A stretch of 64,000 nt of DNA from Actinoplanes sp. KI2 (GTDB taxonomy: Bacteria; Actinomycetota; Actinomycetes; Mycobacteriales; Micromonosporaceae): positions 1 to 64,000 of the forward strand of contig NZ_JAOSZE010000032.1 in the NCBI RefSeq assembly GCF_025630775.1, read 5' to 3'. Shown in pieces: positions 9,657 through 40,446 of this stretch. The notes beneath the pieces are model-generated. The model saw only the letters and a program-made list of their open reading frames with translations, was not told the origin of the DNA and did not search any database. Positions within the stretch are counted from its first letter, which is position 1; each line of letters starts with the position of its first letter. The position numbers and the translations under genes are program-made.

Positions 9657-12600
9657 TCAGCGCGGCTTGACGATCCGCCGCTCCGCGGTGATCTCGTCGA
9701 AGGCGTCCGGCGCCTTCCCGCCCTTCTCCGGCGGGATGATCTCCCGCAGCTCGCGGGGGTACGGTCCCCAGCCGTCGCGCAGCACGTGGATGTAGACGGC
9801 CTCGAGGCAGACCCCGATCCGCTCGGCCAACTCCTGGTCGTCCGGCCGCCCGAGGCGTACCGCCTTCGCGAAGTGGTCCAGCGCCTCCATCTGCCGGCCC
9901 TGGTCGAAGCAGCACCGCCCGGCGTTCTCGTGCACCACGCTGCGCAGCGTCTCCGGGACCCGGGCGGCGGCGGCCTTCGCGAACAGCCGGTCCGCCTCGG
10001 TGAAGTCCCCGCGCAGGCGAAGGATGTGAGCCAGCTCCGCCTGGGCGATCACCATCGACTGCACGTCCCGCGCCGACTCCGCGTGGGCGAGCGCCAGCCG
10101 GCTCGCGGCGGCGGCCATGCCCAGCTCCCCGAGCAGCCGGTAGACCTCGGCCCGCACGCTGAGCAGCCCCGCCTTGGCCACGTTGTCGACCTCGTCGGCG
10201 AGCGGCCCGTCGAGCCGTTCGCCCAGCTCGCGCAGCGCGTCCTTGTCGTCGACCACCTCGCGCAGCGTCCCGCCGTCGAGCCGCCACCGGATCGCGTCCA
10301 GATCCGCGGCCGCCAGCGCCGCCGGCGGTTTGCCGGGCTCCGCGGCGTCCTTGTCGAACACCGGCTCCGGCCCCGGGATCAGCGACAGCGCCGCCATCCG
10401 CTCCGCGACCTCGGCCCGCACGGTGGCGGCGTCCGGCGGCCGGTTGCGGTTCTCCCATTCCTTGCCGGTACGCGTCGCGTCGTCCGCGCCGGTCTCCGCC
10501 CGATCCACAGCAGACTCGGCGCCGGCCGGCCCGCCCTGGGCGTCGTCCCCGGCAGTCGGTTCGGTCTCGATCGCCACACCGTTCAGCAGCCCGGCGAGGT
10601 CCAGGTTGAGGACCACCCCGCTCTCGGCCTCGTCCCGGGCCGCGTCCTCGGCGGCGGCCTCGGTCGCCGGCTCGGGAGCGTCCTCCTTGGGCGCCGTGAA
10701 CCACTTCCCGCCGAACTCGGTGTCCGCGGTCCGCTTCGGCTCCGGATCCGGCCCGGACACCTCCAGCCGTGCGATCGGCCGAAGGTTGTGCAGAGTCCCG
10801 TCCGGATCCATGTAGGGAGCCGCGTGCGCCCCCGGCCGAGGATCCGCCGTAGCTTTCGCCTCGCCGGGGGTCGGCTCGCCCTGCTCCGGCGCGCCGTGCC
10901 GCCCATCGGCAGGTGGCTTCCCATCGGTGGGAGTCCACCCGTCGGCGGGCGCCGGCCCGTCGGTGGGTTGCCGCCCCTCGGCCGGTGTCTGCCTCTCGGT
11001 CGGTGTCTGCCTCTCGGTCGGTGTCTGCCTCTCGGTCGGTGTCTGCCTCTCGGTCGGTGTCTGCCCCTCGGCCGGTGGCTGCCCCTCGGCCGGTGGGCGC
11101 GTCATCGGTACGCCGACGCTCCGGTCGGGCCGGGCGCCCGACGGCGCGCTGATCGGTGCGGACGCGAGCGAGGTCGGCCGGGGCGGCGTCGCGGGAGCTT
11201 GGCGGGGCGGTGCACCCTCCGCCGCCGGGTCGGCCCAGCCCGTGGCCGGCTGCGGCGCGGCCTGTGCCGGACCCGTCGGCCACTGACCCGGCACCTGCCC
11301 GGCGGCCGGTGACACCGGCCGCGACTGCCCAGGCCGCGGCTGTCCGGGCTGCGGCTGTCCGGGCTGCGGCTGTCCGGGCTGCGGCTGTCCGGGCTGCGGC
11401 TGTCCGGGCTGCGGCTGGTCGGGACGCGGAGAGTCGGCGGCCGGACGCCGCCCGGCACGTGGCATCTCGGCGGGGACGGTCGGTCGGCCGGCGGCCGGCG
11501 AGACCGGTGTGTCGGCCGACTGTCCGGGCGCTCGGGGCGGGGGAGACGCCACTCCCGGCATTCCCGAGGACGCGGCGGGCCGCACGGTGTCCGGCGCCGC
11601 GGGCCTCGGAGTGGACGGCTGCTCCGCCGCGGCAGGCGGCACCACCGGCGGCGCAACGGGCGCGGACGGCGCTGCCGCGGGTGGCACTGCCGTCGGCGGC
11701 GTAAAGGCGGCGGGCGGAACCGCGGCGGGTGGCACCGCCGTCGGCGGCGCAAAGGCAGCGGGCGGAACCGCGGCGGGCGGAACCGGCGCAGGACGCGTCG
11801 CCGCCGGGGGCACGTTGGCGGGTGGTGTGCCGCCGGGCGCCACCGGGTTGGGGCGTGCCGCGGCCGGGGGCACGGTGGCGGGCGGCACCGTGCCGGCATG
11901 GGTCGCCGCCGGGGGCAGCGTCGCCGGCGGGACGGCGGCGGGCGGGACGGGGTCGAGACCGGTGCGCGGCAGGTTCGGAGACATCGGCCGGGACAGGCCA
12001 CTGACCGGCTCGGCGGCCGGCGGGGCATCGTCCGGAACCATCGACCACGGGCCGTCGCCCTCGGTGAGCATCACGTGCGCGGTGCGCGGGCTGCGCCGGG
12101 GGCGGCCGTCCGGGTGGGTGAGCCGGGTACCGGTGTCCGACACGCCCTGCTCGGGCGAGCCCAGGCGGCTGCCGCTGTCGGCGGGCGAGCCGGGCACGCC
12201 GAGCCGGGTGCCGGTGTCCCCGGGCGGCGGACGCATCAGCCGCGAGCCGGTCTCGCCGGGCTGCTGCGGCCGCGTCAGGCGAGAGCCGGTCTCGCCGGGG
12301 TGCTGTGGCCGCTCCACACGGGAGCCGGTCTCGCCAGGGTGTTGTGGCCGTTCCAGGCGGGAGCCGGTCTCGCCGGGCTGCTGCGGCCGGATCAGGCGGG
12401 AGCCGGTCTCGCCGGGCTGCGGCGGCCGGATCAGGCGGGAGCCGGTCTCCGCCGGGGAACCGTCCTGCGGCGGCATCCCCGCGCCGGACTCCGGCGGGCG
12501 CCGCAAGGCGGCCGGGTCCAGACGGATCGGGCGCTGGCCGGGCGGAGTCTGCGGTCCCGCGGCGGCCGGAGCGATCGGCGGCCGGCCGGGCGGGGACTGC

Positions 12601-14792
12601 GGACCCGCGGCCGGAGCGATCGGCGGCTGGCTCGCCGGCGGCTGGCCGGCCGGGCTCGGGGTAACCGTCGGTGGCGGGATCACCCGCGCGGCGGGGACGG
12701 CCGGGTTGGTGCCGACCACCCGGGGCGCGTCGCCGGGCTCGGCCTTCTTGACCACGCGTGGGGCGGGCGGCGGCTCCTCGCGGCTGATGACCCGGGTCGG
12801 GGTGGGCGGGGGCGCCTTGCTGAGCACGCGCGGGCCGTCGCCGTCCGGGCGCTCTTCGTCGTCCTGGTCCTGGTCGTCGGGCCGGGCACGGTCGGCCGCC
12901 GGGGCTTCCGGCTGCGGGCGGTGGTCGGTGAGGTCGGCCGTCGACCCGGCCGGGGGCTCGTCGTTCCAGGTGGCCTCGCCCTCGATGTCCCAGGAGGTGA
13001 CCCGTTCGCGGTCGTCCTCCCAGCGCGGACTCCCGGCCCATGCGGCCTGATCGTCCGGGCGGGGCTCGGGCCGGCGGCGCGTCTCGTTCTCGGACCAGCC
13101 GGTGCCGCCGACCGGGCCGAAGCCCTGGTCGTAGTCGCCCGGTGCGGTGACCGGCGGCGCGTCCGGGCGCCGGTCGCGACGACGCTCGTCGTACTCGACG
13201 TAGCCGGCGGCGCGTCCGGCCGACAGGTCGTCGGCGTCCGGGTCCCAGAAGGCGGTGCGGCCGGTCGGGCGGGGCGAGTCCGACCAGGCGTCGGGGTCGG
13301 CGCGGCGGGTGCGCGGGTCACCGACCGGACGCTGCTGCCGCGGGTCGGTGCTGTCGAGCTCGTCGCGGGAGCGGCGGCCGCGCGGGTCCGGGCCGCTCGC
13401 CGGGCGCCGCATCCGGGAGTCGGTGATGTCCAGCTCGGCGTCGACCGGCCGGCGTCCGCGGGGACGGCCGTCCCCCCTCGAACCCGGGCGGCCCTGCTCG
13501 GGGCCCGCCTCGTCGGCCCAGCGCCGGCCGTCGTCGGCGCGGCGGGGGTTGCCGGGGGCGTCTGTCCAGCGCTGACCGTCGCCGGCCGGGCGCCGGTCGT
13601 CGGGTCGCCGGTAGAGGTCGCTCGCGGACGGCTCGGGCACCCGGGCGCGCCCGCTCGCGGCGGCCTCGTCCTCGCGCCGGCCGGGCTGCTCGGCCGGGCC
13701 GCCACGCCACGGCCGGCCGTCGCGCTGGTCCGCGCCGCGCTCCATCTGCCCCGCGCGTGCCGCCATGTCCCGCCCGGCCTGCCCGCCTCGCGGATCGATC
13801 CCACCCGGCTGCGGCATCCGCTGGCCCGGCTGCGGTGCCCGCTGACCCGGCTGGGGCGCGCGCTGACCTGGCTGCGGTGCCCGCTGACCCGGCTGGGGCG
13901 CGCGCTGACCTGGCTGCGGCATCCGCTGACCCGGCTGCGGTGCCCGCTGACCTGGCTGCGGTGCCCGCTGACCCGGCTGGGGCGCGTGCTGACCTGGCTG
14001 CGGTGCCCGCTGACCCGGCTGGGGCGCGTGCTGACCTGGCTGCGGTGCCCGCTGACCTGGCTGCGGTGCGTGCTGGCCCGGCTGCGGCGCGCGCCCGGGC
14101 GGGGCGGCCTCGGGCGGGGCAAGCCGCGCATCCGGGCCACTTCGGACATCGCGCGGGCCGGCCTTCGCCTCCGCGCCCCGGCCCTTCTTCCGGTCCGCCT
14201 TGCGCGACTCGGCCTCCGCCGCCTCCTGCGCCTGCTTGCGCCGCAGCCATCCCTTGCGCTGCGGTTTCGGCTCCTCGGGCGGGTCGACCCGGGTGGTGGT
14301 CTGCGGGCCGTGCCCGTACGCCTCGAGGTCGCGGTGGTCGAACGGCTCGTCGATGTCGTCCTTGAAGTTGCCGAACCGGTCGTCGCGCCGGCCGGCGAGG
14401 TCGCCGGTGCTGCTCATCGGGAAGTCCGGCGCGTCGAAGTCGGCGCCCAGCTCCGGCCGGTTCAGGTCGACGTCGGCGAGATCGCCGGCCAGGTTGGGCA
14501 CCGACGTGTCCACCGGCGCGAAGTCGGGGTCGTCCAGCCAGCTCGGCCGCTGCCCGTCGAAGACGGCCTGCGGCCGGGACGGTCCGGGCGGGGTGTTACC
14601 CGCGGCACGTCGCTGCCGGCGGGCGGCCAGCTCGTCGACCGGCTCGTCGGGGTTGCCGGGCCGCCGGGTCGGAATCACCGCGTCCGGCGCGGTCCGCTTC
14701 GTGTATTGGCGTTCTTGAACGACTGCCGTATTCGGCATGATGGAATACTCGGAGTATTCCTCTTCCCAGTATTCGTCGTCCTCGTAGCTCAT
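9657..14792 (-). CDS. Giant low-complexity repeat protein with TPR-like C-terminus
   Basis: About 1711 residues. The start MSYEDDEYWEEEYSEYS was chosen because it opens a distinctive acidic/Tyr-rich N-terminus; the frame continues 50 codons upstream without support. Residues about 40-230 are charged and mostly polar. Next come 14 heptads of A/MPQPGQR/H (about 234-330), an Arg/Asp/Pro-rich segment, a 13-residue TGSRLxRPQxPGE repeat (about 780-885), Ala/Pro-rich VPPAAF/PPT repeats, QPQPG pentapeptides, and QTPTER hexapeptides (about 1240-1270). Only the last 300 or so residues look folded: alpha-helical, TPR-like (LLSVRAEVYRLLGELGMAAAA, AQAELAHILRLRGDFTEADRLF, GRCCFDQGRQMEALDHFAKA). No signal peptide or membrane segment, so probably cytoplasmic with a disordered scaffold and a TPR platform. 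Function unknown. Confidence 0.8.
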   Translation of the reverse strand: MSYEDDEYWEEEYSEYSIMPNTAVVQERQYTKRTAPDAVIPTRRPGNPDEPVDELAARRQRRAAGNTPPGPSRPQAVFDGQRPSWLDDPDFAPVDTSVPNLAGDLADVDLNRPELGADFDAPDFPMSSTGDLAGRRDDRFGNFKDDIDEPFDHRDLEAYGHGPQTTTRVDPPEEPKPQRKGWLRRKQAQEAAEAESRKADRKKGRGAEAKAGPRDVRSGPDARLAPPEAAPPGRAPQPGQHAPQPGQRAPQPGQHAPQPGQRAPQPGQHAPQPGQRAPQPGQRAPQPGQRMPQPGQRAPQPGQRAPQPGQRAPQPGQRAPQPGQRMPQPGGIDPRGGQAGRDMAARAGQMERGADQRDGRPWRGGPAEQPGRREDEAAASGRARVPEPSASDLYRRPDDRRPAGDGQRWTDAPGNPRRADDGRRWADEAGPEQGRPGSRGDGRPRGRRPVDAELDITDSRMRRPASGPDPRGRRSRDELDSTDPRQQRPVGDPRTRRADPDAWSDSPRPTGRTAFWDPDADDLSAGRAAGYVEYDERRRDRRPDAPPVTAPGDYDQGFGPVGGTGWSENETRRRPEPRPDDQAAWAGSPRWEDDRERVTSWDIEGEATWNDEPPAGSTADLTDHRPQPEAPAADRARPDDQDQDDEERPDGDGPRVLSKAPPPTPTRVISREEPPPAPRVVKKAEPGDAPRVVGTNPAVPAARVIPPPTVTPSPAGQPPASQPPIAPAAGPQSPPGRPPIAPAAAGPQTPPGQRPIRLDPAALRRPPESGAGMPPQDGSPAETGSRLIRPPQPGETGSRLIRPQQPGETGSRLERPQHPGETGSRVERPQHPGETGSRLTRPQQPGETGSRLMRPPPGDTGTRLGVPGSPADSGSRLGSPEQGVSDTGTRLTHPDGRPRRSPRTAHVMLTEGDGPWSMVPDDAPPAAEPVSGLSRPMSPNLPRTGLDPVPPAAVPPATLPPAATHAGTVPPATVPPAAARPNPVAPGGTPPANVPPAATRPAPVPPAAVPPAAFAPPTAVPPAAVPPAAFTPPTAVPPAAAPSAPVAPPVVPPAAAEQPSTPRPAAPDTVRPAASSGMPGVASPPPRAPGQSADTPVSPAAGRPTVPAEMPRAGRRPAADSPRPDQPQPGQPQPGQPQPGQPQPGQPQPGQPRPGQSRPVSPAAGQVPGQWPTGPAQAAPQPATGWADPAAEGAPPRQAPATPPRPTSLASAPISAPSGARPDRSVGVPMTRPPAEGQPPAEGQTPTERQTPTERQTPTERQTPTERQTPAEGRQPTDGPAPADGWTPTDGKPPADGRHGAPEQGEPTPGEAKATADPRPGAHAAPYMDPDGTLHNLRPIARLEVSGPDPEPKRTADTEFGGKWFTAPKEDAPEPATEAAAEDAARDEAESGVVLNLDLAGLLNGVAIETEPTAGDDAQGGPAGAESAVDRAETGADDATRTGKEWENRNRPPDAATVRAEVAERMAALSLIPGPEPVFDKDAAEPGKPPAALAAADLDAIRWRLDGGTLREVVDDKDALRELGERLDGPLADEVDNVAKAGLLSVRAEVYRLLGELGMAAAASRLALAHAESARDVQSMVIAQAELAHILRLRGDFTEADRLFAKAAAARVPETLRSVVHENAGRCCFDQGRQMEALDHFAKAVRLGRPDDQELAERIGVCLEAVYIHVLRDGWGPYPRELREIIPPEKGGKAPDAFDEITAERRIVKPR
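10981..11080 (-). repeat. 18-bp tandem repeat coding QTPTER hexapeptides
   Basis: Near-identical GGTGTCTGCCTCTCGGTC units (plus-strand reading), about five copies, inside the giant repeat gene. A multiple of three, so expansion keeps the frame. Near-identical synonymous positions suggest recent duplication. Confidence 0.85.
11335..11425 (-). repeat. 15-bp tandem repeat coding PQPGQ pentapeptides
   Basis: Plus-strand unit CCGGGCTGCGGCTGT repeated about six times almost without change within the giant repeat gene. Confidence 0.85.
12125..12455 (-). repeat. 39-bp tandem repeat coding TGSRLxRPQxPGE units
   Basis: About eight 13-residue units with the invariant core TGSRL/TGTRL; the variable positions (I, E, T, M, G after L) show older divergence than the heptads. 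Within the giant repeat gene. Confidence 0.85.
13803..14092 (-). repeat. 21-bp tandem repeat coding APQPGQR heptads
   Basis: Fourteen consecutive heptads alternating R/H at the last position and A/M at the first. DNA units are nearly identical (plus-strand core CTGCGGTGCCCGCTGACC), so copy number may vary between strains or be miscounted in assembly. Confidence 0.9.
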
Positions 14793-15551
14793 GCGGCGGC
14801 CCCGCGGGCGGGCAGGCGGCGATCGGGGGTGTCTGGTCCGCCCCTGTGCCGCATCGTGCCCCCCGCTCTTCCCAAGATCGAATCTCCGCTCCGGCCCGGT
14901 GGGGTTCCCCCTCCCATCCGGTGGATGTGGAAGGTTAACCACGCTTTTGCGACGTGCGCCAGCACCCTCGTGAGCGCGTCGCCGGGCCGGGTGGCCGCAT
15001 GGTGACCGAGAGTCGGCGCGGCCGTCACGCGGTCCGCGTTCGTTCCTTCACGGCAGAGTACGCACGACCATGCCGAACAGTTCAAACGTTCCCGGGACCG
15101 GTACGGATCGTCGGCATCGATTGACGCCACGTCACGGTGTGCCGAAAATGCCGACTTAAGAAACTCTTAAACTCGTTTTGAGGACCCGCACGAATTGCCG
15201 GCGGACCCGTCCGGGGTACCGAAAGGTTACCGGCGGGTTTCCGGAGGGTGGCGAACGCCACTCCCGCTTCCTGCGGATCAAGGTGCCGGCGGATGTCACG
15301 GTGGATGAGCACTCGGGACACCGAGGTTCCAGCGTTCGAAACGAGGACACTGGACCTTCGATCCCCCGGATGGCGGCCGCCGCCCCCGTACTTCGCGGCC
15401 GCCCCTCGCGCCACACCCCAGAGACGCTCGCACGGCTTGCCCCCCAGGTGCGTGCGAGGTCATGGCGGCGCGAACCGGGAGAGGAACGGCGGCGGGGTGC
15501 ACACCGTCGCCGTTTCGCATCGTCCGGGCGCAACAGCAGCACCCGTTCCCC
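14793..15551. other. Long gap upstream of the giant repeat gene
   Basis: About 760 nt between the giant gene and the next small gene, both on the minus strand. Open frames exist on both strands but none has coding bias, a ribosome binding site or a recognisable product. It contains an unusually A/T-rich patch around 15150-15180 with a palindrome, and GGTACC/GGTTACC-rich hairpin-capable sequence at about 15210-15240. It presumably holds the promoter and leader of the giant gene. I see nothing else I can support. Confidence 0.5.
15156..15170. promoter_or_regulatory. A/T-rich palindrome TTAAGA-AAC-TCTTAA
   Basis: Perfect 6-bp arms with 3-nt spacer in a very G/C-rich genome, about 365 nt upstream of the giant repeat gene. 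Could be a regulator site or part of a promoter; no further evidence. Confidence 0.35.
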
Positions 15552-15992
15552 TCAGCCGAGGCGACCGTCCGATGTGAACGGTCCGACCTTGGTCGGTAAC
15601 ACGAGCCCGGCCGCCGACAGCGCCCTGAGCAGCGACACCAGCTCATCGCGCCGCAGCGCGCCGGGCTTTTCCGGTTCCCGGTGCGGTACGCCGAGGGCGC
15701 GGGCCGCCTCGGTGGCGCGCACCGCGATCGCCGCTTCCACCGCCCACAGTCGATGCGCGCGCATGGCCACCGCCGCCGACGCGGTCAGCGAGCCGTGCAG
15801 GAGCAGGAGCCGGCGCAGGTCGGCGGCCAGTTGCTCGATCGGCGGCCCGTACGGCTGCGGGGGTTTCGGCCGGCGCGTCTCCCAGTAGCCCGCCGCCGCC
15901 TCCCAGCACCGCGGTGCGTAGACGATCGCCGCGCCGACCAGCGTGGGCGTGGCCACTATCAGGACAAGTTTCCCCACATCCAAGACGCTCAC
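15552..15992 (-). CDS. Small membrane-anchored protein of unknown function
   Basis: 146 residues from a GTG preceded by AGGGAG at a spacing of about 6 nt; this was preferred to an ATG 16 codons upstream. One N-terminal membrane segment (VLDVGKLVLIVATPTLVGAAIVYA), then a basic, Pro-rich stretch (ETRRPKPPQPYGPPIEQLA) and Ala/Leu-rich helices (AADLRRLLLLHGSLTASAAVAMRAHRLWAVEAA). I do not recognise the family. It lies between the pirin gene and the giant repeat gene on the same strand. Confidence 0.7.
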   Translation of the reverse strand: MSVLDVGKLVLIVATPTLVGAAIVYAPRCWEAAAGYWETRRPKPPQPYGPPIEQLAADLRRLLLLHGSLTASAAVAMRAHRLWAVEAAIAVRATEAARALGVPHREPEKPGALRRDELVSLLRALSAAGLVLPTKVGPFTSDGRLG

Positions 15993-16072
15993 GAGAGACT
16001 CCCTGCCTACCCCTCGACGATGCGCCCGGCGAAAAGGCACGTCAAGCGGAATGCGCGCGCATCGCTCCCAGC

Positions 16073-16188
16073 GGGGATCAGCACACGCGGCAGCCCCGGG
16101 GCGATCCGCGGGGAACGGCGGGGATCAGCGCACGCGGCGGCCCGGGGCGATCCGCGGGGAACGGCGGGGATCAGCGCACGCGGCCGCG
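16073..16188. repeat. 46-47-bp tandem repeat at the 3' end of the pirin gene
   Basis: Units start at 16073, 16120 and 16166 (the third partial, about 23 nt), each opening GGGGATCAGCGCACGCGGC (with a few changes). The pirin stop codon lies in the third unit, so the terminal codons and stop have been copied twice downstream. The units contain GGGGCGATCCGCGGGGAACGGC, which can pair within and between copies and might act as a terminator. Confidence 0.85.
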
Positions 16189-17127
16189 CGGGACCAGCCG
16201 GGTCAGTGGCATCGGGGGAGCGGGCAGCGGCGGCCCGTCGTAGCCGCGGACCTCCCCGAAGCGGGGCGTCCGCGACTCCCAGTCGGCACGCATCTGGACG
16301 ATCTCGTCGTGCTCGCGGGCCACGAAGTTCCACCACATCACGAGCCGTTCCTCGAACGGCTCGCCCCCCAGCAGCAGGACCCGGGCCGGCGACGATGTGG
16401 CGAGCCGCACCGTGGACCGTCCCGACCCCAGGTAGAGCAGCGGTCCCGGCTTCAGCGTCGCATCGTCCACGTTCGCCGCACCGTCGAGCGCCAGCGCCGC
16501 GTACTCGAAACCGGGATCGAGCGGTACCGCAGCTTGAGCCCCGGCAGCCAGGGTGAGCTCCGCGCCCACCAGGGGGGTGTGGATCCGCGCCGGCGAGGTC
16601 GCGTCGCCGAGCGTGCCCATCAGGACGGTCGCGGTGATGCCGCCGCCGAGGGCGACGACCGGAAGCGCCGCGTGGTGGGCGAAGGCCGGGGGCATGTCGC
16701 GGTCCGCGTGCGGCAGAGCAACCCACAGTTGTACGCCGTGGAGCACGCCCGAGTTCCGCGGCGGCGTCTCCTCGGAGTGGGCGATGCCCCGGCCGGCGGT
16801 CATCAGGTTGAGCTGCCCCGGCCGGATCTCCTGGTGGTTGCCGAGCGTGTCGCGGTGCAGGATCTCGCCCGCCACCAGCCAGGTCACCGTCTGCAGGCCG
16901 GTGTGCGGGTGCGGGCCGACCCGCATGCCGGCCGAGTCGCGGATGTCGTGCGGCCCGTACGCGTCCAGGAAGCACCACGCGCCGACCATGCGCCGCTGCC
17001 GGTTGGGCAGGGTCCGGGTGACGGCGAAGCCGCGCGGCCCGCCGAGCGCGACCGGCGCGCCCTCCAGCAACTCCATGCTGACCGGGCGTTCCGGCCCCAC
17101 CTCGGGATCCGCCTCGAAGCTGCTCAC
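16171..17127 (-). CDS. Pirin family protein
   Basis: 318 residues in two cupin halves. The N-terminal half carries the pirin metal site: His73 and His75 in GPHPHTGLQT, His117 and Glu119 in GIAHSEETP. The C-terminal half ends RYxEVRGYDGPPLPAP-like sequence, usual for pirins of this length. Bacterial pirins are Fe-binding cupins; some have quercetinase activity, others bind partner proteins. It follows the PPOX and DUF2252 genes on the same strand but with a short gap, so it could be co-transcribed. The last codons are part of a tandem duplication. Confidence 0.93.
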   Translation of the reverse strand: MSSFEADPEVGPERPVSMELLEGAPVALGGPRGFAVTRTLPNRQRRMVGAWCFLDAYGPHDIRDSAGMRVGPHPHTGLQTVTWLVAGEILHRDTLGNHQEIRPGQLNLMTAGRGIAHSEETPPRNSGVLHGVQLWVALPHADRDMPPAFAHHAALPVVALGGGITATVLMGTLGDATSPARIHTPLVGAELTLAAGAQAAVPLDPGFEYAALALDGAANVDDATLKPGPLLYLGSGRSTVRLATSSPARVLLLGGEPFEERLVMWWNFVAREHDEIVQMRADWESRTPRFGEVRGYDGPPLPAPPMPLTRLVPRGRVR

Positions 17128-39229: not shown

Positions 39230-39370
39230 CGCCGATCGGGGAACCGCTGGAGCCGGAGCCCGGGGGAGAGGGAAACGGGCCGGAACAGGGTAGTGCCCCT
39301 GTTCCGGCCCGAACCCCGTGCCGCCCGCCCGTCAGTCGCCCACGCCGTTAGTCACGCCCCCGCCCTGGGT

Positions 39371-39489
39371 CAGGCCCGCGCCGTGGTCACGCCCGCGCCG
39401 TGGTCAGGCCCGCGCCGTGGTCGGGCCCGCGCCGTGGTCGGGCCCGCGCCGTGGTCGGGCCCGCGCCGTGGTCAGGCCCGCGCCGTGGT
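39371..39489. repeat. 17-bp tandem repeat at the 3' end of the Nudix-like gene
   Basis: Seven units of consensus C[AG/AC/GG]GCCCGCGCCGTGGT, with a degenerate 18-nt copy before. The Nudix-like stop (complement of 39472-39474) falls at the junction of the last two units. Seventeen is not a multiple of three, so changes in copy number shift which unit supplies the stop. Confidence 0.9.
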
Positions 39490-40446
39490 CGCGCCCTCGG
39501 CGTTTGTCGCGCCCTCCAGCAGGGCGACAGCGCCGGCCGCCGCGGGCGTCAGCACCGACGGGGGATGGGCGGTCCAGAACCGTTCGATGCCGCCGGCCGA
39601 GAGCTCGACCTGCTGAACATCGGCGAACTCGCCGTCGCCGGCGGTCACTGCCCGCGCTTCCGCCGGGGTGAGGTCGAGCCGGAACACCAGATCCGGACGC
39701 AGGCGCAGCAGGTCGTGCGCGATGCCGAGCACGGTGGCGCGCCGGGCGACCTCCGCCGGGCCGACCTCGACGCCGAGCTCCTCCGCCAGCTCCCGCGACA
39801 CGGTCGTCTCCCAGTGCCGCCCTTGGGCGTCCGGCTCGAGCATGCCGGACGGGGCGACGTGCCACATTCCCGGATCGGTCGCCACGCTCCGGCTCCGCCG
39901 GCCGATCACGAACCGGCGTGGTCGCCCGTCATCCCGGCCGGCCATCGTGAGCCCGTCATCCTGGCCGGCCACCGTGAGCGCGTCATCCCGGTCAGCCACC
40001 GTGAGCCCGTCATCCTGGCCGGCGACCGTGAGCAGCACGGAGACGCCGATGCCGGCCGCTCGCCCGGCACCGGACACGAGCGGGTCCCCGGCCACCGCGT
40101 GCGCCCTGCTCCGCAGCGGCTGATCGCCGCCCGCCGCCAGGTGCTCGGCACGGATGGCGTCGCAGGTGGCGAGCATGTCGAAGTAGCCGCCGGGCGCGGC
40201 CAGCACACCGTTCTCGTCGGTGCGAACCCAGCAGAGGAGGCCGCCGTCGTGGAGGGCGGGCCGCGCGGCCCGGAGTCGCTCGAGGTGCGGCAGCCCCAGG
40301 GCGAGCAGGGCGGCATCGCACGAGACCGGCTTGTCGGCGACGCGCAGCCGGCCGTGCGGGAGCGGTTGGACGGCGACCGGGTAGGCGTTTCCGGCCCGCT
40401 CGACGGAGCCGCCGTAGAGCCGGGTCAGGCTGGAGTAGTCGATCAC
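39472..40446 (-). CDS. Nudix-like protein with internal repeat
   Basis: 324 residues from GTG (no clear ribosome binding site). The C-terminal half has WHVAPSGMLEP and RELAEELGVEV; the latter is the core REUxEExGU of the Nudix box, but the spacing to the expected upstream Gly and Glu is not standard, so catalysis is uncertain. The N-terminal half (YSSLTRLYGGSVERAGNAYP, KPVSCDAALLALGLPHLERL) is unrecognised. Between them lie four 9-residue copies of LTVAGQDDG (39927-40034). The tail (EGATTARA) is coded by the 17-bp repeat. Might hydrolyse a nucleotide derivative. Confidence 0.65.
   Translation of the reverse strand: MIDYSSLTRLYGGSVERAGNAYPVAVQPLPHGRLRVADKPVSCDAALLALGLPHLERLRAARPALHDGGLLCWVRTDENGVLAAPGGYFDMLATCDAIRAEHLAAGGDQPLRSRAHAVAGDPLVSGAGRAAGIGVSVLLTVAGQDDGLTVADRDDALTVAGQDDGLTMAGRDDGRPRRFVIGRRSRSVATDPGMWHVAPSGMLEPDAQGRHWETTVSRELAEELGVEVGPAEVARRATVLGIAHDLLRLRPDLVFRLDLTPAEARAVTAGDGEFADVQQVELSAGGIERFWTAHPPSVLTPAAAGAVALLEGATNAEGATTARA
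39927..40034 (-). repeat. 27-bp tandem repeat inside the Nudix-like gene
   Basis: Four exact-length 27-bp units coding LTVAGQDDG / LTVADRDDA / LTVAGQDDG / LTMAGRDDG. Inserted between the N-terminal part and the Nudix domain; in frame. Confidence 0.88.

Follow-up and report, generated by a model that had tools for sequence, protein, structure and literature searches.

A WG-less paralogue in Actinoplanes of a Micromonosporaceae gene for a repeat-rich disordered arm and a TPR domain

The gene and its tandem repeats

The window, the whole stretch of 64,000 nucleotides of Actinoplanes sp. KI2 that was analysed, carries on the minus strand a gene (here B) that runs as a single 1,711-amino-acid frame from an ATG at 14792 to a TGA at 9657, as a first-pass annotation had described. 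GC content at the three codon positions (0.81/0.63/0.89) follows the coding pattern of a high-GC actinomycete. An alternative in-frame GTG at 14942 is possible; of the 33 distinct B genes, however, 30, including that of the window, open with MS[FY]EDDEYW, and the ATG at 14792 was therefore taken as the conserved start. These 33 genes were drawn from 36 rows by removing L084 and L088, duplicates of L032 and L033, as well as L067, a misfiled A gene (see below) that was cut by a length rule and whose frame is lost past the start of the TPR. Whole-length comparisons used 30 B proteins (1,373 to 2,556 aa), with L032 (frame break), L049 (different N terminus), and L103 (N terminus outside that frame) also set aside.

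The N terminus of the protein is acidic and rich in Tyr, as annotated, and also in Trp. The annotated lack of an export signal agrees with hydropathy: averaged over 19 residues, the Kyte-Doolittle value peaks at 1.25 (aa 1392), and there is no membrane stretch. A sortase-anchored surface protein of the SspA type was considered and rejected on this ground and on the C-terminal end, ...AERRIVKPR. Searches of Pfam and NCBIfam with the B protein returned no model spanning its full length, in line with the earlier remark that no named family is known to have this combination. The features are as follows, in the order of the protein.

9657..14792, minus strand: whole gene, paralogue B, 1,711 aa (frame and coding pattern; conserved start in 30 of 33 B genes)
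14658..14792, minus strand: island aa 1-45, acidic and aromatic (MSYEDDEYWEEEYSEYS...), identity 0.66 to 29 others
14415..14561, minus strand: island aa 78-126 (RPSWLDDPDF...FNRPELG...), identity 0.68
13803..14094, minus strand: heptad array, 21 bp (42-bp double unit), APQPGQR, TRF score 430
12663..12833, minus strand: island aa 654-710, repeated [PTA]RV[VIL] motif, identity 0.60
12205..12456, minus strand: 39-bp array, PGETGSRLIRPQQ, TRF score 306, common to L032
12012..12101, minus strand: island aa 898-927 (RSPRTAHVMLTEGDGPWSMVPD), identity 0.62
11646..11785, minus strand: 48-bp array, VPPAAVPPAAFAPPTA (TRF)
11317..11417, minus strand: pentad array, 15 bp, QPQPG (TRF)
10955..11095, minus strand: hexad array, 18 bp (TRF unit 54 bp), QTPTER, four identical units (TRF and unit identity)
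10692..10820, minus strand: island aa 1325-1367 (YMDPDGTLHNLRPIARLEVSGPD), identity 0.66
9729..10316, minus strand: TPR domain aa 1493-1688, C-terminal GWGPYPR, identity 0.83 (profile and AF2)
9915..9917, minus strand: Arg 1626 (alignment residue 142), basic in all armed rows (TPR alignment, 79 rows)

TRF recovered all four of the in-frame repeats that had been read from the letters, with periods of 21 (42), 39, 15, and 18 (54) bp, and added arrays of 48 and 60 bp. Eight non-overlapping in-frame arrays were found, with a top score of 430, while 100 codon shuffles of the gene gave a mean of 0.27 arrays, a maximum of 3, and a top score of 107. Mean pairwise DNA identity among units was 86% for the heptads (n = 13), 88% for the pentads (n = 6), 82% for the 39-bp units (n = 5), and 100% for the 18-bp units (n = 4). 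Only the 18-bp array is therefore perfect, and the near identity first described for the heptads does not hold; the age order proposed for the arrays stood, as set out below. Elsewhere in the window, a 17-bp unit, whose period is indivisible by three, is present in 8.9 copies (90%) at 39338-39490, and a 46-bp unit in 2.6 copies (93%) at 16071-16192, next to the pirin gene at its low-coordinate end.

The TPR domain and paralogues A and B

The TPR-like helical C terminus of the first reading was borne out. A profile of 79 TPR domains matched designed TPRs in the PDB at an E value of 2.3e-26, with OGT, kinesin light chain, Pins, and others among further sequence matches, and AF2 modelled the window domain as helix pairs (pLDDT 91, pTM 0.85). 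The window protein alone fell just short of the Pfam TPR_12 cut-off (29.2 versus 30.1 bits). The top Foldseek match was the KLC2 TPR (E 6.9e-4), in a list that includes KLC2 with a tryptophan-acidic peptide (3zfw). VIA-align placed many structures almost level; a Deinococcus protein that is uncharacterised reached Z 17.2 (rmsd 2.3 over 167 aligned) and LGN Z 16.9 (rmsd 3.4 over 173), but helical repeats readily give high Z-scores and likeness of fold to peptide-binding TPRs shows no function.

The C-terminal 311 aa of B match 96 of 101 Micromonosporaceae genomes, the five misses being assemblies of at least 630 contigs. The window genome itself holds a second copy, A (L043), on another contig; for A, too, there is no named family that spans the whole protein. 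Within the genus, all 67 genomes list both B (E 1e-90 or better) and A (E 1.1e-26 to 1.1e-50), and five extra weak matches in that search are TPR noise. In the family sample, B was found in the window's genus and in one genome of another genus (G028), and the nearest named relatives are in Actinoplanes and Paractinoplanes; the first 128 aa of B match five of the 101 genomes, all in the window's genus.

Both proteins have a repeat-rich disordered arm and a TPR domain closing with GxGPxPR, and the two TPR domains are homologous (E 1e-26 to 1e-50 from the B query to A copies) at about 40% identity. In A, the TPR is followed by about 230 residues with WG repeats; the WG domain PF14903 was found in all three A proteins scanned (E 1.2e-25, 1.4e-16, and 2.1e-18), and AF2 modelled the TPR-WG part with a pLDDT of 92.9 and a pTM of 0.84. 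In contrast, Pfam found no WG repeats in the window B protein at E 0.1. The N-terminal motif of A (W..E.T.EW..PGQRYPGD) is likewise its own, and among other proteins of the window genome the N-terminal motif of B had, apart from the B gene, a best E value of 0.178. A quick tree was built from 84 TPR domains; long branches were flagged among its short proteins, and the 33 B rows formed one clade with a support of 100. Taken together, the sequences identify the window gene as the Actinoplanes-type paralogue B of a family-wide gene for an arm, a TPR domain, and WG repeats.

Seventeen TPR columns separate the paralogues: in each, one residue is found in over 85% of B rows and another in over 85% of A rows. 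Over 153 pairs among the 18 genus genomes with both copies, mean TPR identity was 0.808 in B against 0.671 in A, and B was the higher in 151. Since these columns differ from A and B is the better conserved, the TPR of B appears to have changed and then held still.

The two genes lie at unlike loci. Around A, aldo-keto reductase clusters recur in 30 loci and CobU in 27 (Pfam names from L052); both are absent beside the window B gene, whose neighbours by Pfam are EamA, acyltransferase, pirin, MacB/FtsX permease, HlyD-type, L,D-transpeptidase, PNPOx, ROK, and PPC. Beside B in other genomes, a pirin cluster recurs in seven loci and an EamA cluster in three. Neither the window neighbours nor these recurring clusters gave a functional lead. 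A 162-aa open reading frame (15552-16040, minus strand) lies between B and pirin; Pfam gave no match to it, a single hydrophobic stretch is visible by eye, and it has a relative near the B gene of G028 (L049).

Across the phylum, the TPR-WG alignment matched 25 of 296 genomes, the whole model in two, the window's own and another of the same family (G003), and the TPR or WG part alone in the others. In the order, 56 of 249 genomes matched, 41 of them in Micromonosporaceae, while the 15 from other families matched in the TPR part alone. Because these searches scored the best five to seven candidates per genome, they do not firmly establish that the gene is absent from other families. Some of the matches outside are small TPR proteins; those of related families (L139 to L146) have the same TPR domain by profile (best eight E 1e-16 to 1e-25, one 5e-15), and no long arm or WG domain was seen in them. 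One such protein is encoded in a genome from a different family of the order (L139:9089-11881), where its gene is flanked by ruvC and ruvA and ruvB comes next (Pfam), and by eye ruvC or ruvB adjoins the small TPR gene in L142 and L145; a link of such a TPR with Holliday-junction genes is possible. Ten short family members (frames of 365 to 575 aa) are armless or, in L065 and L066, carry 139 and 211 residues on the N-terminal side of the TPR; L074 was scored armless by judgement despite 103 codons ahead of the TPR in open frame.

Disorder, islands, and repeat turnover in the arm

The proposed intrinsic disorder agrees with composition, as 87% of residues in aa 131-1492 are disorder promoting and the segment falls on the disordered side of the charge-hydropathy boundary. 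Between species, B arms are about 30% identical. Against the other 29 whole B proteins, the identity of the window protein is 0.24 to 0.31 in the spacers, while the five islands reach 0.60 to 0.68 and the TPR 0.83. A role as an FtsZ-tail mimic that binds the divisome was considered and dropped: the island FDDVDFNRPEL / DFDxPDFP resembles the FtsZ tail of the same genome (FDDVDVPDFLK), but against shuffles 2 of 30 proteins gave p < 0.05, with a median p of 0.315.

Repeat arrays were found in every related gene examined. Each of the 33 B genes has 5 to 16 TRF arrays, of which 339 of 342 have a period divisible by three, as do 269 of the 275 arrays in 36 long A genes. Several unrelated arrays per gene are thus normal across the family, and the units vary between species. 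The nearest relative, A. subtropicus (L032; TPR 96% identical to the window's), shares the 39-bp ETGSR array and has PGQHA-type pentads at the site of the window's heptads; the window's APQPGQ, GQPQP, and QTPTE units are absent from both frames that hold its gene. This pattern of one shared array and otherwise differing units bears out the age order, with the note that the L032 array row is partly an out-of-frame reading. The low spacer identity, the in-frame arrays, and the species-specific units together point to spacer turnover under constraint on frame and composition.

An assembly artefact, or a non-coding open frame, was considered as a rival explanation. The window genome is a draft of 201 contigs with 7.05% contamination, and the L032 copy (L032:3097-8975) is spread over two frames that part close to a perfect array of 15-bp units, either a draft error or real slippage. 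However, single-contig genomes such as G516, G540, and G549 show the same B architecture, which answers this worry; the frame has a coding GC pattern, islands of the protein are conserved between species, and the related genes carry in-frame arrays of their own. The B protein does not look like an artefact, and we regard that explanation as extremely improbable.

A proposed tether or scaffold and its relation to known systems

We favour, with modest confidence, the view that the B protein is a cytoplasmic tether or scaffold. Its C-terminal TPR would grip a short peptide of a partner, and the disordered arm of about 1,490 residues would present five fixed short islands on which further partners may dock. 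The spacer between them, rich in P/A/G/Q/R and without Cys, would be held for composition rather than sequence and rebuilt species by species through in-frame tandem duplication. B itself probably arose by duplication of the family-wide protein with arm, TPR, and WG repeats; the copy would then have lost its WG domain, and its TPR surface would have been altered and afterwards nearly frozen. The earlier suggestion of a disordered scaffold with a protein-binding C terminus thus holds in part: the long disordered arm and a TPR end whose fold is of a peptide-binding kind are supported, and the scaffold is inferred. That suggestion had not foreseen the family-wide gene, its usual WG-bearing member, the conserved islands, or that many arrays per gene are the norm.

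Alternatively, the acidic aromatic N terminus (EDDEYWEEEY) and other Trp-acidic spots in the arm could bind the TPR groove of the protein itself, in cis as autoinhibition or in trans to give chains or condensates. Tryptophan-acidic peptides bind kinesin light chain, and KLC2 heads the Foldseek list that also contains its complex with such a peptide. Acidic residues make up 25% of the neighbours within three residues of Trp in the 30 B arms, versus a background of 13%, and 22% when the first 130 aa are omitted. In A arms (32 of 46, with the start motif found and an arm above 400 aa) the enrichment is gone without the first 130 aa (14.5% versus 13.5%). TPR position 142, which we take to be concave from the TPR register rather than from coordinates, is basic in the 71 armed rows of 79 and in none of the eight armless ones. 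This column was, however, chosen after inspection of all columns, the link reflects two changes on the tree only (one or two independent pairs; sign test p 1), and an armless outgroup protein in L143 has Lys at 142 by eye. Support for self-binding is mixed, and it seems unlikely. An extension, in which the TPR of one molecule grips acidic-aromatic arm motifs of the next to form chains or condensates whose material each species tunes by in-frame repeat turnover, is more doubtful still; if true, the copy without WG repeats would be dedicated to organising something that is specific to Actinoplanes and its close relatives.

The arm might instead be largely neutral filler that lengthens as replication slips on GC-rich DNA and is tolerated while in frame, so that only the TPR, and perhaps the N terminus, matters. 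Low spacer identity, units that vary between species, the range of lengths among whole B proteins, and eight armless family members are all consistent with this, but five islands of the arm are conserved and the long arm has been retained in all 33 B genes and in 36 A genes. We consider neutral filler improbable and return to the tether or scaffold as the preferred reading.

The gene is uncharacterised, is present in nearly all sampled Micromonosporaceae genomes, and has its B paralogue kept throughout the genus. Together, its copies constitute a natural experiment in which the TPR is nearly fixed while the arm, about 1,500 residues long, is remade in each species except for five short islands. 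Selection on a bacterial disordered arm is directly testable through exchange of arms between species.

In the open-licence PMC literature on arm and TPR architecture, no paper was recognised as treating the B gene, and a weak search with A. missouriensis locus tags inferred from map position likewise led to none. The likeness to kinesin light chain and LGN is one of fold; these are eukaryotic proteins at about 15 to 21% identity. SspA of Actinoplanes missouriensis is a disordered protein of the same genus; as described in PMC13293333, it has 191 aa, a signal peptide, and a sortase signal, whereas the window protein has 1,711 aa and a TPR and is without a membrane stretch. The Streptomyces TPR orphans of PMC13118837 lie near rpsA/coaE, a neighbourhood unlike that of B. 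TPR combined with disorder is already a known kind (PMC7279152); what is new here is a very long, fast-rewritten arm, fixed islands within it, and a lost WG domain.
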